From a virus: DNA of 36,491 nt. The DNA lies in IMG/VR virus record IMGVR_UViG_3300037882_002570, positions 1-36,491 of that record; one strand, written 5' to 3'. Made by a program: the position numbers and the translations under genes. Below the pieces are notes generated by a model. The model ran no database searches and was not told the DNA's origin. It saw nothing but the letters and a program-made list of their open reading frames with translations. Positions 3,569-13,137 of the stretch are shown in pieces (within the stretch, counting starts at the first letter, position 1; every line of letters begins with the position of its first letter).

Positions 3569-3583
3569 GTGGCATTAGTGGCA
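3569..3583 (+). promoter_or_regulatory. Candidate integrase arm sites, right pair (GTGGCA)
   Basis: Two GTGGCA boxes start at 3569 and 3578, immediately upstream of the integrase ATG. With the pair at 3398/3409 they bracket the tRNA-derived core. If the integrase binds here it could also repress its own gene. Confidence 0.4.
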
Positions 3584-3592
3584 CCAGCCACC

Positions 3593-4651
3593 ATGCCGAA
3601 AAGACCAGACTTCCAACCATTCCAACGCGGCGACCGCTGGGTTGTTTCCATTCCGCCGTCCATGACGGCAACCGGAAAGCGGGTTCGCAAGGTATTTCTC
3701 ACGGAGCCTGCCGCAGAAAAGTATGCAGGAAAGCTGCGGGCGTCGCACAATTCCGGAGTGCGCGGCGGGATGATTTCCGCCACGCTGGCTGCACAGGCGA
3801 TCGAGGCGGAGCGGATCTTGGAAGGGACAGGGCTCGGGCTGGTGGACGCGGCCAAGCAGGCTGCCGCGCGGCTCAAGGATGAATCCAGCAAGGAGCCATT
3901 CAAACTGCGGTATGATCGAGCCATCCTTGCCAACGAGGAGCACTGGCGCGACCGATACAAGGCCGACATGGAGCGCCTGCCCAGGTGGCTGCCCAAGTGG
4001 TTCATGGACACTCCCTGCGGGGTGATCGATCGCGCGGAGATCGAGCGGGCGCTGACCGATGGCAAGAAACTGGCGCGCAGCACGATCGACATGAGAGCGG
4101 CCCGAGTGTTGGCCATTCTCGGCTACAGGGAGCGGCACCGCAGTTCCGTCAAAATCCGGATTTTAACGGAAGGCGAGGTGGCGGCCATGTTTGAGGCCTG
4201 CGAGACAGCGGATGAAAAGCGGGTGCTTGCGGTGCTGTTGTTTGCCGGGATCCGACCGGACGCGGAAGGTGGGGAGATCTCACGGATACAATGGGAGGAC
4301 ATTGGGGAGCGATACATCACGGTGCATCCTGATGCGAGCAAGACCGGCTCGGATCGCCTGGTGCCCATCACGCCGCGGTTGAAGGCCGAGCTCAAAGGGC
4401 ACCCAAAGACTGGGCCCGTGGCGCCGGCCGGATGGCGGAAGCGGTGGCAGCGGATCAGGAAGACGGCAAGCATCAGCGGACAGGATGTGACGCGGCACAC
4501 GTTCGCCTCGCACTTTCTCGCATGGAAGGGAGACAAGGCTACCAAGGAGGCCTTGGGCCACACGGCTGGAAGCGAGACGCTGTTTCGGCACTACCGCCGA
4601 GCGGTCACCACTGCGGCTGGGCGGGCCTATTTCCAAGTTGAGACCAAATAG
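3593..4651 (+). CDS. int: Tyrosine-family site-specific integrase
   Basis: A 352-residue tyrosine recombinase that would integrate the phage at the host tRNA-Thr gene whose 3' end lies just upstream. The N-terminal half (1-185) holds arm- and core-binding regions. The catalytic half shows Arg221 (AGIRP), Lys250 (SKTGSDR), the DxxR box with Arg301 in place of the usual HxxR, His323 (LGH) and the nucleophile Tyr334 (FRHY). Replacement of the first His by Asp298 is seen in other members. I chose ATG 3593; a GTG at 3569 would add eight residues but lies in the putative arm sites. The stop is followed at once by inverted-repeat element 1. Confidence 0.92.
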   Translation: MPKRPDFQPFQRGDRWVVSIPPSMTATGKRVRKVFLTEPAAEKYAGKLRASHNSGVRGGMISATLAAQAIEAERILEGTGLGLVDAAKQAAARLKDESSKEPFKLRYDRAILANEEHWRDRYKADMERLPRWLPKWFMDTPCGVIDRAEIERALTDGKKLARSTIDMRAARVLAILGYRERHRSSVKIRILTEGEVAAMFEACETADEKRVLAVLLFAGIRPDAEGGEISRIQWEDIGERYITVHPDASKTGSDRLVPITPRLKAELKGHPKTGPVAPAGWRKRWQRIRKTASISGQDVTRHTFASHFLAWKGDKATKEALGHTAGSETLFRHYRRAVTTAAGRAYFQVETK

Positions 4652-4767: not shown

Positions 4768-5211
4768 CTACTTATCGAGATTGATTGGCTCTTGGGCAGC
4801 TTTCCGCTCAACACCAGCTGGCATGCCGGGAATACTCGAAGGCTTTGGCTCTGGCATCTTGATTGATGAATCTTTGCCAGCCAAAACATCATATTGACCT
4901 TGTGCATAAGCCTTCTTCTCAAGGAGCGGAACGATTTTCTCATAGTAAATCTCAAGGTCTTGCTTCGCCCATTTTTGATTCACATATTTTTCCGCCAGAT
5001 CGGCCGAACTGGCTTGCCATTCGTCTCCGCGTTTCTTTTCTGCGGCAACAGCATCGTTTGCGGATTCCAGCTTTTTTTCTAGGTTTTGAATGGTTGATGC
5101 CTGCTTGTCGATCTTCTCCGCATGATCACGGCTCTCAGTTTTCCATTCATACATCAAGACGGCAATAGCCACCGCCATGATTCCAATCACCGCATATAAA
5201 ATGGCTTTCAT
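4768..5211 (-). CDS. Membrane-anchored coiled-coil protein of the immunity operon
   Basis: A 147-residue protein with an N-terminal membrane segment (about residues 3-21) followed by a long charged coiled coil (about 27-100, heptad-like Lys/Glu/Leu) and a Pro-rich tail (about 118-140). The topology resembles inner-membrane Rz-type spanins and also single-pass superinfection-exclusion proteins. It lies twelve bases downstream of the repressor on the same strand, so it should be expressed in the lysogen. That placement favours a prophage-expressed function (exclusion or conversion) over lysis, where genes lie at 19652-21228. No family is recognised. Confidence 0.75.
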   Translation of the reverse strand: MKAILYAVIGIMAVAIAVLMYEWKTESRDHAEKIDKQASTIQNLEKKLESANDAVAAEKKRGDEWQASSADLAEKYVNQKWAKQDLEIYYEKIVPLLEKKAYAQGQYDVLAGKDSSIKMPEPKPSSIPGMPAGVERKAAQEPINLDK

Positions 5212-5223
5212 TTGAGCAGGGTG

Positions 5224-5832
5224 TCACAGGTTATCCGCTTTGTCGAACCATCCGATCCAATCCAATCCCTCCTCGGCTTGTATATCCGCATGCTCTGGAT
5301 TGAGAGAGCGCAGGACTTTGTTTCCTTCCGCATCTTTGGCCCACTGCTTGAAAGCGGCGGCCCCGTCATAAACGAAGCAGTAGAGCTCGCCGTATTTCAG
5401 GACTGGGCGCTTGAGGGTGGCCTTGTCGCGCAGAACTACTCGCTGCTTGTGTTTGAACCTCGGTTCCATCGAGTCTCCACGTAGCTCAAGAAGAAAGCGG
5501 CCCATACCGAGATCTCGATCCGGCTCGACCATTTCAGCATCGGCCAAGATAGGGAATCCTGCAGCGGCCCTGAGTAGCGGAACCTCAGGGAAGGTGATGA
5601 CCGACGGCGCCGAAGTTTTGGCGGACCGGAGCGCTCTGGCAGTATCGGCAACAAGCTTGGGCAGATCATATTTGCAGGCGCTGAGATCTTCTAGGCCTAT
5701 TTCAAGGCACATTCGCAAGATTTCAGCCTGCTTGTGCCCTGTTCTTTTCACCGCTTCCGACACTTTTTCCATCAATTCCGGCGACATGCGGATCGGGGCA
5801 GAGACGATTTTTACTGATTCGTTGTCGTTCAT
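5224..5832 (-). CDS. LexA-like phage repressor with ribbon-helix-helix DNA-binding domain and S24 peptidase
   Basis: A 202-residue protein that should maintain lysogeny and be self-cleaved in the SOS response. Residues 10-50 form a ribbon-helix-helix pattern (strand APIRM, then KVSEAVKRTGHKQAEILRM), not the usual helix-turn-helix. Residues 83-200 form an S24/LexA peptidase: cleavage site Ala91-Gly92 in an AAAGFP context, nucleophile Ser121 in GDSMEP, and candidate general base Lys162 in FKQW. Its N-terminal domain is about 40% identical to the divergent small protein at 5894 (15 of 36 positions by eye), suggesting both read the same operators. It is the first gene of a leftward operon with the membrane protein. 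Confidence 0.88.
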   Translation of the reverse strand: MNDNESVKIVSAPIRMSPELMEKVSEAVKRTGHKQAEILRMCLEIGLEDLSACKYDLPKLVADTARALRSAKTSAPSVITFPEVPLLRAAAGFPILADAEMVEPDRDLGMGRFLLELRGDSMEPRFKHKQRVVLRDKATLKRPVLKYGELYCFVYDGAAAFKQWAKDAEGNKVLRSLNPEHADIQAEEGLDWIGWFDKADNL

Positions 5833-5901
5833 TTTTAATGACTTATCATAAAAATATCAAAATGACTACTTTTTTCTTGCTGGCGTAGTCAAAATGACTA
5901 C
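5833..5901. promoter_or_regulatory. Operator/promoter region of the lysogeny switch
   Basis: Between divergent repressor and small RHH genes. It contains a perfect palindrome GTAGTCA-AAA-TGACTAC (5885-5901), a second TCAAAATGACTAC (5857-5869) exactly 32 bases upstream of the same string in the palindrome (5889), and a third related site, TGACTTATCA (5839-5848). Repeated TGACT/AGTCA half-sites suit RHH dimers, which often bind short tandem repeats. Very AT-rich stretches (5831-5862) could hold the promoters. The palindrome overlaps the ATG at 5894, so repressor binding there would block the rightward gene. Confidence 0.7.
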
Positions 5902-6124
5902 GTTCCGAAACATGAGCCATCCGGAAACGCAAGAAGTCAGCCAAGCCGAAAAGGTAATCACTCTAAGAATCCAAGAGGCATTAAATTTGAAAGTGGATGA
6001 CGCGGTCAAATCCACCGGTCTGAAAAAGTCCGATGTCATCCGGTTGGCCTTAGAAAGAGGAGTGGACGTTCTGCTGGCACAGTTGCTGTCCGGCGTTCCT
6101 CAACAGGAAGGAAGGGAGGCATGA
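5894..6124 (+). CDS. Small ribbon-helix-helix regulator (Cro-like role)
   Basis: A 76-residue protein that resembles Arc/CopG-type regulators: strand VITLRI, then helix ALNLKVDDAVKSTG, turn, and helix KKSDVIRLALERG. The RHH unit spans about residues 21-58. It is divergent from and adjacent to the repressor and shares its N-terminal domain type, so a Cro-like antagonist role is likely. ATG 5894 sits inside the operator palindrome; ATG 5912 (residue 7) leaves the operator free and is an equally good start, giving 70 residues. It overlaps the next gene by four bases. Confidence 0.75.
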   Translation: MTTFRNMSHPETQEVSQAEKVITLRIQEALNLKVDDAVKSTGLKKSDVIRLALERGVDVLLAQLLSGVPQQEGREA

Positions 6125-6369
6125 GCGCGAGGCCTCAATCCACTCGGAATCTGGTGTCCGCTCGCAAGCTCGGCCTCGAGCTGGGTATGAGCGTGAACGC
6201 CGTCCTGCGGATCTACCGCGACGGGATCATCGATGCCGAGGTCCACGAAGGCACCCTGATCCGCTTCGATGCGGAGAAGGTGAAGGCGACCCTCGCAAAG
6301 AGGGCAAAGCGCAATCGCGGCGAGGTGGCCGCGCCAACCAATCAACCCGGCATGGTGCCGACCTACTGA
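6121..6369 (+). CDS. Excisionase-like helix-turn-helix protein
   Basis: An 82-residue protein with an N-terminal helix-turn-helix of the winged MerR/Xis type: an entry segment about residues 8-20 (LVSARKLGLELG), turn MSVN, recognition helix AVLRIYRDGII, then a strand-like wing with RFDAEKV. The tail is basic. It sits second in the rightward early operon after the RHH gene, where phages often keep an excisionase or activator. It may bend attP DNA during excision or regulate early genes. Translation is coupled through ATGA. Confidence 0.65.
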   Translation: MSARPQSTRNLVSARKLGLELGMSVNAVLRIYRDGIIDAEVHEGTLIRFDAEKVKATLAKRAKRNRGEVAAPTNQPGMVPTY

Positions 6370-11492: not shown

Positions 11493-11863
11493 GCAACCAC
11501 TCAGACGACGACTACGCCCGCGGCGACTGGGAGCACGACCAAATGAAGGATCGGCTCATGGAGGAAAGGCGCGAGCGAGAAGCATTGGAACGCGGTAGGA
11601 TAGCAGAGAAGAATCTGGAGGAGTTGCGCGCAGCCGTTCGGAACCTTCGCGACGTGCAAGGCCGCCACCACACGCAACAGGCCACCGATCGTCTGTTTGC
11701 CCTACTTCCCGAGGGAGTGCCCAAACGGCAACTTCTTTGCGGATGGAGAGGAATGGCTGGAGGCGAGGGATGCATCCTGCCACTCGGTCACGATGAACGG
11801 CACGGATTCAGTGATGGATCTGGTGCTAAGGTAAGCGCCCAAGCTGGAGGTGTCTCTCAATGA
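11489..11863 (+). CDS. Coiled-coil protein with C-terminal Cys/His motif, hypothetical
   Basis: A 124-residue protein starting with GTG 11489, overlapping the RusA stop by four bases. Residues 12-60 form a charged coiled coil (Arg/Glu-rich). The C-terminus carries C-x11-C-x5-H-x3-H (about 87-110; the segment CILPLGHDERHGF), a pattern seen in small phage proteins and consistent with a zinc site. Function unknown. Confidence 0.7.
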   Translation: MSNHSDDDYARGDWEHDQMKDRLMEERREREALERGRIAEKNLEELRAAVRNLRDVQGRHHTQQATDRLFALLPEGVPKRQLLCGWRGMAGGEGCILPLGHDERHGFSDGSGAKVSAQAGGVSQ

Positions 11864-13137
11864 AATATCGCATCGCCGATCTTTTCTGCGGAGCGGGCGG
11901 AACATCCGCCGGTGCCATGGAGGCTGTGCTCGTGCTCGGCAAAAAACCGGAACTGACAGCTATCAACCATTGGCCGCGCGCAATTGAAACGCACACCGCC
12001 AACCATCCCGAGGCACGCCACCTGTGCACCGGAGTGGACAGTGTGAATCCCCGCGATCTATTCGCCGAGGGGGAGCTTGATCTGCTGTGGGCGTCGCCAG
12101 AATGCACTCACCACAGCCGCGCCCGTGGAGGAAAGCCGATGTCGGACCAATCCCGCGCCACAGCATGGTGCGTGGTCCGCTGGGCCGAAGCACTGCGGCC
12201 GCCAGTGATCCTAATCGAGAACGTGCCGGAGTTTGCTGAGTGGGGGCCAATCGGAACCAAGGGGCAACCGCTGGCCAGCCGCAAGGGTGAGACGTTCGCT
12301 GCATGGAAGGCCGCGCTCACCTCGCTCGGATACAAGGTCGACCACCGGCTGCTCTGTGCTGCTGACTACGGCGACCCGACCACGCGCACTCGCTTGTTTG
12401 TCCAGGCCGTGCGCGGACGCCGGCAGATCGTGTGGCCGCACGCTACCCACAGCCGTCATCCTGATCTGATGACAACCCGGCGCTGGAAGAGCGCAGCCGA
12501 CAGCGTGATCGATTGGAGCATTCCGGTGATCCCTATCAACCAACGCAAGCGGCCGCTCGCCGACCGCACTATGGAGCGGATCCACGAAGGGTTGGCGCGC
12601 TACAGCGGCAAGCCGTTCTTAGTCGCAATGGAGCATGGCGGGAGGACCATCTGCGCAACCGCTCCGGTGCCGACCGTGACGTGCGCGAAGGGCGGGGCCA
12701 TGGGCGTGGCGTATCTGCTGAAACTGAGAGGATCGAGCGACGCTCACCTCGCGTCATCCATCAAATCACCAGAGGTGCCACTCGACACGGTATCAGCAGG
12801 CGGAACGCATCACGCGCTCATTCTGGAATACTACGGCAACGGCCAAGCTCGGCCCGCTTCTGAGCCATTGCCGACTGTGACTTGCAAGGATCGGTTTGCG
12901 CTCGTTGACGTGGATGGCGATCGCATCGGATTCCGCATGCTACAGCCGCACGAACTCGCCGCAGCTCAAGGATTCCCCGCTCACTACCAATTCACCGGCA
13001 CCAAGACCGATCAGGTCCGGCAAATCGGCAACGCGGTGCCGCGCAGATTAGCGCGCGCCATCGTGGCTGCCGTGATCTCTCAAAACCCAGACATCTCGGC
13101 AATCGTCGAAGCGGAGGAAAAACAACCAGCAGCATGA
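11860..13137 (+). CDS. DNA cytosine-5 methyltransferase
   Basis: A 425-residue C5 cytosine methyltransferase. Motif I is DLFCGAGG (7-14), motif IV has the catalytic Cys82 in SPEC-T rather than the usual PCQ, motif VI is ENV (120-122), the QxRxR-like motif VIII appears as TTRTR, and motif X is IGNAVP near the C-terminus. The long middle is the target recognition region. It probably protects phage DNA from host restriction; no cognate nuclease is encoded nearby, so an orphan, self-protecting enzyme is likely. Overlaps neighbours on both sides by four bases. Confidence 0.9.
   Translation: MKYRIADLFCGAGGTSAGAMEAVLVLGKKPELTAINHWPRAIETHTANHPEARHLCTGVDSVNPRDLFAEGELDLLWASPECTHHSRARGGKPMSDQSRATAWCVVRWAEALRPPVILIENVPEFAEWGPIGTKGQPLASRKGETFAAWKAALTSLGYKVDHRLLCAADYGDPTTRTRLFVQAVRGRRQIVWPHATHSRHPDLMTTRRWKSAADSVIDWSIPVIPINQRKRPLADRTMERIHEGLARYSGKPFLVAMEHGGRTICATAPVPTVTCAKGGAMGVAYLLKLRGSSDAHLASSIKSPEVPLDTVSAGGTHHALILEYYGNGQARPASEPLPTVTCKDRFALVDVDGDRIGFRMLQPHELAAAQGFPAHYQFTGTKTDQVRQIGNAVPRRLARAIVAAVISQNPDISAIVEAEEKQPAA

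Follow-up and report, generated by a model that had tools for sequence, protein, structure and literature searches.

How would a temperate phage choose between lysogeny and lysis if both regulators at its switch bound DNA through ribbon-helix-helix (RHH) rather than helix-turn-helix (HTH) domains? The locus that raises this question lies in a 36,491-base IMG/VR virus record, IMGVR_UViG_3300037882_002570, the whole of which is called the window here. The window terminase shares 45% identity with its counterpart in Akkermansia phage Chambord, and the head, portal and integrase genes match those of the Akkermansia phages Chambord and Chantilly; because of these resemblances, the host is most likely a verrucomicrobium. 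Close to the integrase, a repressor that joins an RHH head to an S24/LexA-type tail faces away from a small gene for a second RHH protein. We consider it probable that the two form a CI/Cro-type lysogeny switch of a Verrucomicrobia temperate phage, built on the RHH fold and with SOS sensing added by fusion. The locus comprises the following features.

3569 to 4651, plus strand: tyrosine integrase (Pfam PF00589; PHROG integrase 2.5e-18; 58% identical to the integrase of L068)
4768 to 5211, minus strand: short membrane/coiled-coil protein, co-directional with the repressor and 12 nt downstream of it; weak matches to Rz-like spanins
5224 to 5832, minus strand: RHH-S24 repressor, 202 amino acids, CI-like (Pfam S24 E=2.5e-12; RHH family A2; full-length homologues in L009 and L017)
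5248 to 5571, minus strand: S24/LexA-type self-cleaving domain, residues 88-195 (Pfam PF00717 Peptidase_S24 E=2.5e-12; Foldseek; 82% identical to that of L003)
5347 to 5349, minus strand: predicted catalytic Lys162, invariant in six RHH-S24 proteins
5470 to 5472, minus strand: predicted catalytic Ser121, invariant in the same six
5557 to 5562, minus strand: predicted cleavage site Ala91-Gly92, invariant in the same six
5677 to 5811, minus strand: RHH DNA-binding head, residues 8-52, with strand VSAPIRM followed by two helices
5857 to 5869: putative second operator half-site TCAAAATGACTAC, 32 bp from the copy in the main operator
5874 to 5904, plus strand: predicted small-gene promoter, TTCTTG at 5874-5879, a 19-bp spacer overlapping the main operator, TACGTT at 5899-5904
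5884 to 5902: putative main operator O_R, a perfect 8-3-8 palindrome CGTAGTCA-AAA-TGACTACG, that is CGTAGTCAAAATGACTACG; 21 bases kept in L009
5912 to 6124, plus strand: small RHH protein, 70 amino acids, Cro-like partner; start chosen by comparison with L009, the reading frame being able to open at 5894, which is judged unlikely
6121 to 6369, plus strand: small protein with weak excisionase/HTH matches, next in the rightward operon (phrog_66 E=0.003)

Homologues of this last gene are present in L067, L068, L069 and L125. On the other side, the product of 4768-5211 combines an N-terminal membrane segment with a coiled coil, and a comparable gene occupies the same place in L057; the gene might be expressed in the prophage and serve exclusion or be spanin-like. 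Further along the window, a DNA methyltransferase gene (11860-13137, plus strand) is 53-57% identical to genes in the prophage regions of L036 and L043.

Related heads and the putative operator between them

The initial annotation had read the two heads as paralogues, and this is borne out by 15 identities over 42 aligned columns, a Smith-Waterman score of 77 that was not reached in 10,000 shuffles, and a profile-profile comparison of the left and right families (97.5%, E=8e-12). We relied on profiles and shuffles because composition-adjusted BLASTP detected no similarity between the two window proteins. The annotation had also let the small gene open at 5894, which is probably wrong; that ATG lies within the operator and the equivalent frame in L009 is closed, so 5912 is most likely the start.

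The DNA between the genes had been described as carrying repeated TGACT half-sites. A repeat does exist, in the half-site at 5857-5869, matched in L009 and in L017 by one at a distance of 33-34 bp, but the main element is better described as one perfect 8-3-8 palindrome, O_R. The 21 bases from 5884 to 5904 are identical in L009 (relative G102), where the repressors are only 37-41% identical, and the core 17 operator bases recur in the viral contig L057, again between a divergent RHH pair. With up to three mismatches allowed, GTAGTCAAAATGACTAC occurs within the window at the operator site only, against 0.05 occurrences expected, and the degenerate palindrome GTAGTCAWWWTGACTAC is found at one place in the 387 genomes searched (the order around the relative L003), which is this operator site. 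Tested against shuffled versions of the window's intergenic region, this one palindrome comes out at p=0.03. In most loci, the best palindrome sits about 50-64 bp from the left start, a shared position with a combined Fisher p=5e-9 against dinucleotide shuffles and single-locus values from 0.003 to 0.9. A chance origin of the palindrome was rejected on its scarcity in the window and the 387 genomes and on its shared position. By eye, its sequence also tracks the strand of the head: VSAPIRM goes with GTAGTCA, TTVKF and STIKF go with GTAG-type palindromes, and VPLAV and TPIAI with TGATATAAG. The exact palindrome is present in ten viral contigs and accompanies an RHH pair only in L057, so that in the virosphere at large the motif does not by itself identify such a pair. 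In three viral contigs (L055, L059 and L060), GTAGTCAAAATGACTAC or its half GTAGTCAAAATGA is repeated with no RHH gene nearby.

The palindrome overlaps the spacer of the predicted small-gene promoter. A TTnTTG/TAnnnn pair with an 18-20 bp spacer, a motif chosen after inspection, frames the palindrome in 11 of 21 loci versus 0.6 expected from shuffles; a generic sigma-70 scan did not find the proposed small-gene promoter. In the window, the small-gene start codon lies 7 nt beyond TACGTT, and at many loci (the window, L009, L017, L057, L070 and L071) the predicted -10 sits 6-8 nt before the start codon. This spacing suggests that the small RHH gene is perhaps read from a leaderless message. The lambda cI message made from PRM is leaderless.

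We describe the switch through its anatomy, conservation and homology; for operator occupancy, promoter activity, DNA binding, cleavage and competition, we infer the following course. In a lysogen, the palindrome at 5884-5902 would be occupied by the RHH-S24 protein, aided by the half-site at 5857-5869. Because the palindrome lies in the -35/-10 spacer of the predicted rightward promoter, binding would silence that promoter, and hence both the small RHH gene and the early genes that follow. On DNA damage, RecA filaments would induce the repressor to cut itself at Ala91-Gly92 and to leave the DNA. The uncleavable small RHH protein, made from the freed promoter, would then, like Cro, keep this region in its lytic state.

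Whether the two proteins could use the same DNA depends on their strands. Three strand positions of RHH proteins face the DNA. In Arc and Mnt, specificity resides in the N-terminal region (Knight and Sauer 1989, as cited in PMC3325190). In 21 non-redundant left/right pairs, we compared likeness within pairs with likeness between pairs. The DNA-facing residues are more alike within pairs (p=5e-5, and p=0.0015 in the core set), whereas the strand core positions show no within-pair excess (p=0.72); for the helices, the excess has p=1e-4 with distant pairs included and 0.08 in the core set. This co-variation, together with an operator kept at one fixed position, favours common operators for left and right proteins across loci; in the window's own pair the co-variation is weak, and there the specificity may be shared too.

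The most serious alternative is that the small RHH protein does not compete: it would have a site of its own, or take part in early regulation or in excision, and only the repressor would use the palindrome. The two proteins may indeed differ in preference, since the window pair has one facing residue of three in common (S,P,R versus V,T,R) and the L009 pair none. The window, L057 and L028 moreover have a single full palindrome each, and the gene after the small RHH gene is excisionase-like. Such independence is, however, at odds with facing residues that co-vary within pairs far more than the strand core residues do, and with the two similar palindromes that L009, L017, L071 and L073 carry in one intergenic region, as expected of one shared specificity. 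We regard non-competition as unlikely, and competition for shared operators as the likelier reading.

Recurrence of the pair and exchange of the S24 tail

A survey of RHH-S24 fusions, suggested in the initial annotation, covered Verrucomicrobiota and about 50,700 catalogued phage records. From the 387 genomes of the order around L003, it yielded five further RHH-S24 proteins in Verrucomicrobiota (L009, L017, L019, L021 and L027), and at all six loci, the window included, a small RHH gene lies divergent to the fusion. No RHH-S24 protein was found by tblastn in the roughly 50,700 described phage records, and the repressor alone, used as query against viral contigs and described phages, gave no match. 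The six RHH-S24 proteins were too diverse for their alignment to serve in a contig scan; pairs with a short left protein were found by searching viral contigs and genomes with the small RHH family. In all, there are about 20 divergent RHH/RHH pairs, with start-to-start gaps mostly of 75-120 bp and a common operator position, and integrases stand beside L009, L017, L016, L057, L068, L070, L071 and L073. In most of these pairs, the left protein is a short, uncleavable form without S24. The RHH/RHH switch thus occurs more widely than the S24 tail, its variable part. The viral contig L057 is one such case: its left protein, 87 amino acids long with an integrase nearby, is about 57-60% identical to the window head and has no S24 tail. 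Since relatives show the same switch with and without the S24 domain, the damage sensor looks like a plug-in part. RHH genes with the strand KTVITQLRF occur in chromosomal surroundings with no obvious phage genes (L012, L013, L014 and L015), in three cases (L012, L013 and L015) as divergent pairs with GTAACT palindromes; these loci are possibly domesticated switches.

The tails have a history of their own. L003, whose S24 domain is so close to that of the window, has an unrelated head, and the S24 domains of L125 and L126, 71-79% identical to the window's, belong to relatives that share its early genes and, for L125, its integrase. In a tree of S24 domains, the window groups with L003 (support 100/100), tails with RHH heads are scattered over four places among those with HTH heads, and well-supported branches force at least four head changes, in whichever direction. 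A poorly resolved tree of the 72-residue heads places the window nearest the tail-less L057 (82/82). In two different genomes, the RHH-S24 genes L019:845-1474 (minus strand) and L021:850-1467 (plus strand) encode nearly identical tails; their RHH heads differ clearly, and a separate small RHH gene diverges from each. The close likeness of the window tail to one on an unrelated head indicates that heads and tails were exchanged, and by this comparison of sequences the S24 tail has several times been attached to RHH heads or swapped on them. The divergent small gene of L003 and L125 encodes a different protein from that of the window, so that head, partner and operator seem to move together. Many repressors of Verrucomicrobia phages look as if built from three domains, an HTH-like head, an RHH-like middle and an S24 tail, among them those of L003 (5626-6384), L005 (8141-8938, minus strand), L008, L018, L022, L025, L026, L125, L126 and Chambord; against solved structures, the profile of their middle domain finds MazE6 and ParD at E=0.017-0.036. 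The Chambord repressor aligns to that of L009 through this RHH-like middle part.

A bolder reading adds to the switch that the small RHH protein, beyond competing for DNA, poisons the RHH-S24 repressor directly in mixed dimers, that the tail is a portable damage sensor which phages add to or drop from a common RHH switch, and that a single immunity cassette of head, partner and operator is what phages exchange. The RHH ribbon is built from one strand per subunit, which makes mixed dimers conceivable; as a whole, we think this extension doubtful.

Does the tail still sense damage? It could instead dimerise or stabilise the repressor, with induction by another route. Most relatives manage without a tail, so the switch can be thrown otherwise, and some phages that lack a cleavable repressor rely on antirepressors or on separate peptidases (PMC10432266), as the short tail-less forms would also have to. 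Yet residues A90-A91-G92, S121 and K162, all present in the window repressor, are invariant in the six RHH-S24 proteins, and the closest kin of the tail on other heads also keep the cleavage site and the Ser-Lys dyad. A tail that has lost its sensing role is therefore improbable. Prophages of Akkermansia muciniphila are inducible by mitomycin C (PMC8008629), and hence a damage response does act on prophages in this phylum. With the tail as a damage sensor, the window and L009 on the one hand and L057 on the other offer a natural comparison of the same switch and operator with and without SOS sensing. What an S24 tail adds, and how a phage gains or loses inducibility, are thus directly testable.

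The fold of the two proteins

That the small divergent gene also encodes an RHH protein, as had been proposed, agrees with weak matches of its product to RelB (E=9.7e-4), RelB_DinJ (0.011), aCcr1 (3.5e-6) and a CopG-like repressor (9.5e-5), all below curated cut-offs, and with the match between its family profile and that of the left proteins. Against solved structures, the right-family profile finds CopG first, at 0.029. The two RelB-type matches would also suit the antitoxin of a toxin-antitoxin pair, but they reflect the RHH fold; the gene that follows is excisionase-like and not a toxin, and prophage-linked loci pair the small gene with a divergent RHH gene and have an integrase nearby. 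We rejected the toxin-antitoxin reading as very improbable.

For the repressor, the initial annotation had placed an RHH N-terminus before a LexA-like self-cleaving domain with Ala91-Gly92, Ser121 and Lys162, and both halves of this description hold. The second is backed by the Pfam S24 match and the invariant residues, and Foldseek with the predicted model relates the S24 part to lambda CI, LexA and UmuD; the same fold search returned no match to the repressor head. For the head, the evidence comes from its family, homologues and a model. Pfam RHH_1 matches nine of 13 family members (best 1.7e-5) and RHH_5 matches two (1.1e-4), and the left-family profile finds VapB26, RelB and CopG among solved structures, at weak E-values and ranked below two designed repeat proteins. 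An AlphaFold2 prediction from the single repressor sequence was unusable (pLDDT 36), and a 12-row alignment was used instead. The resulting model, of middling confidence (mean pLDDT 68.5) and a monomer in which the ribbon cannot form, shows an extended stretch followed by helices at 18-31 and 35-45 (pLDDT about 62-80), where an HTH fold would have spoken against the annotation. Family profiles, predicted secondary structure and homologues together support an RHH rather than an HTH head. An unusual HTH head with a chance likeness to RHH, for which one could cite that the window head alone stays below every curated RHH cut-off among the Pfam models and that a few relatives have weak HTH matches, is the least probable alternative of all in view of these family, structure-profile and model results and the match to the small RHH family. 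The description of the S24 family as having an N-terminal HTH domain thus does not fit the window repressor, whose head is RHH by profiles and model.

Comparison with known switches

Regulators of the S24 type are described with an N-terminal HTH (PMC13148647), whereas here a damage-sensing S24 tail stands on an RHH head at six loci; we found no description of an RHH-S24 repressor in the open-licence literature. For a little-studied phylum, the arrangement also offers a rule by which the repressors of its phages can be annotated. FddR and other S24 DNA-damage regulators resemble the window repressor as autoregulating S24 proteins that control divergent genes through a palindrome, and differ in their N-terminal HTH (PMC13148647) where the window repressor has RHH. 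Also comparable are the HTH-S24 repressors of Verrucomicrobia phages (Chambord, L003, L125 and L126): the tails of the last three are 71-82% identical to the window's, but their heads consist of an unrelated HTH-like domain and an RHH-like middle domain. The P22 immunity region immI likewise encodes two RHH repressors next to each other, Arc and Mnt. That region, however, is a secondary one inside the late operon and controls the antirepressor gene ant (PMC8022706), whereas the window pair adjoins the integrase in the position of a primary switch, is followed by an excisionase-like gene and not by ant, and includes one protein with an S24 tail. A further parallel is lambda CI/Cro, with its RecA-cleavable CI. 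In both systems, a repressor with an S24 tail of the self-cleaving type is encoded divergently from a small lytic regulator, the two proteins have related DNA-binding domains, operators lie between their genes and an integrase is nearby; unlike lambda, the window uses RHH rather than HTH for both DNA-binding domains, has one intergenic operator region, and belongs to a family in which most repressor homologues do without the S24 tail.
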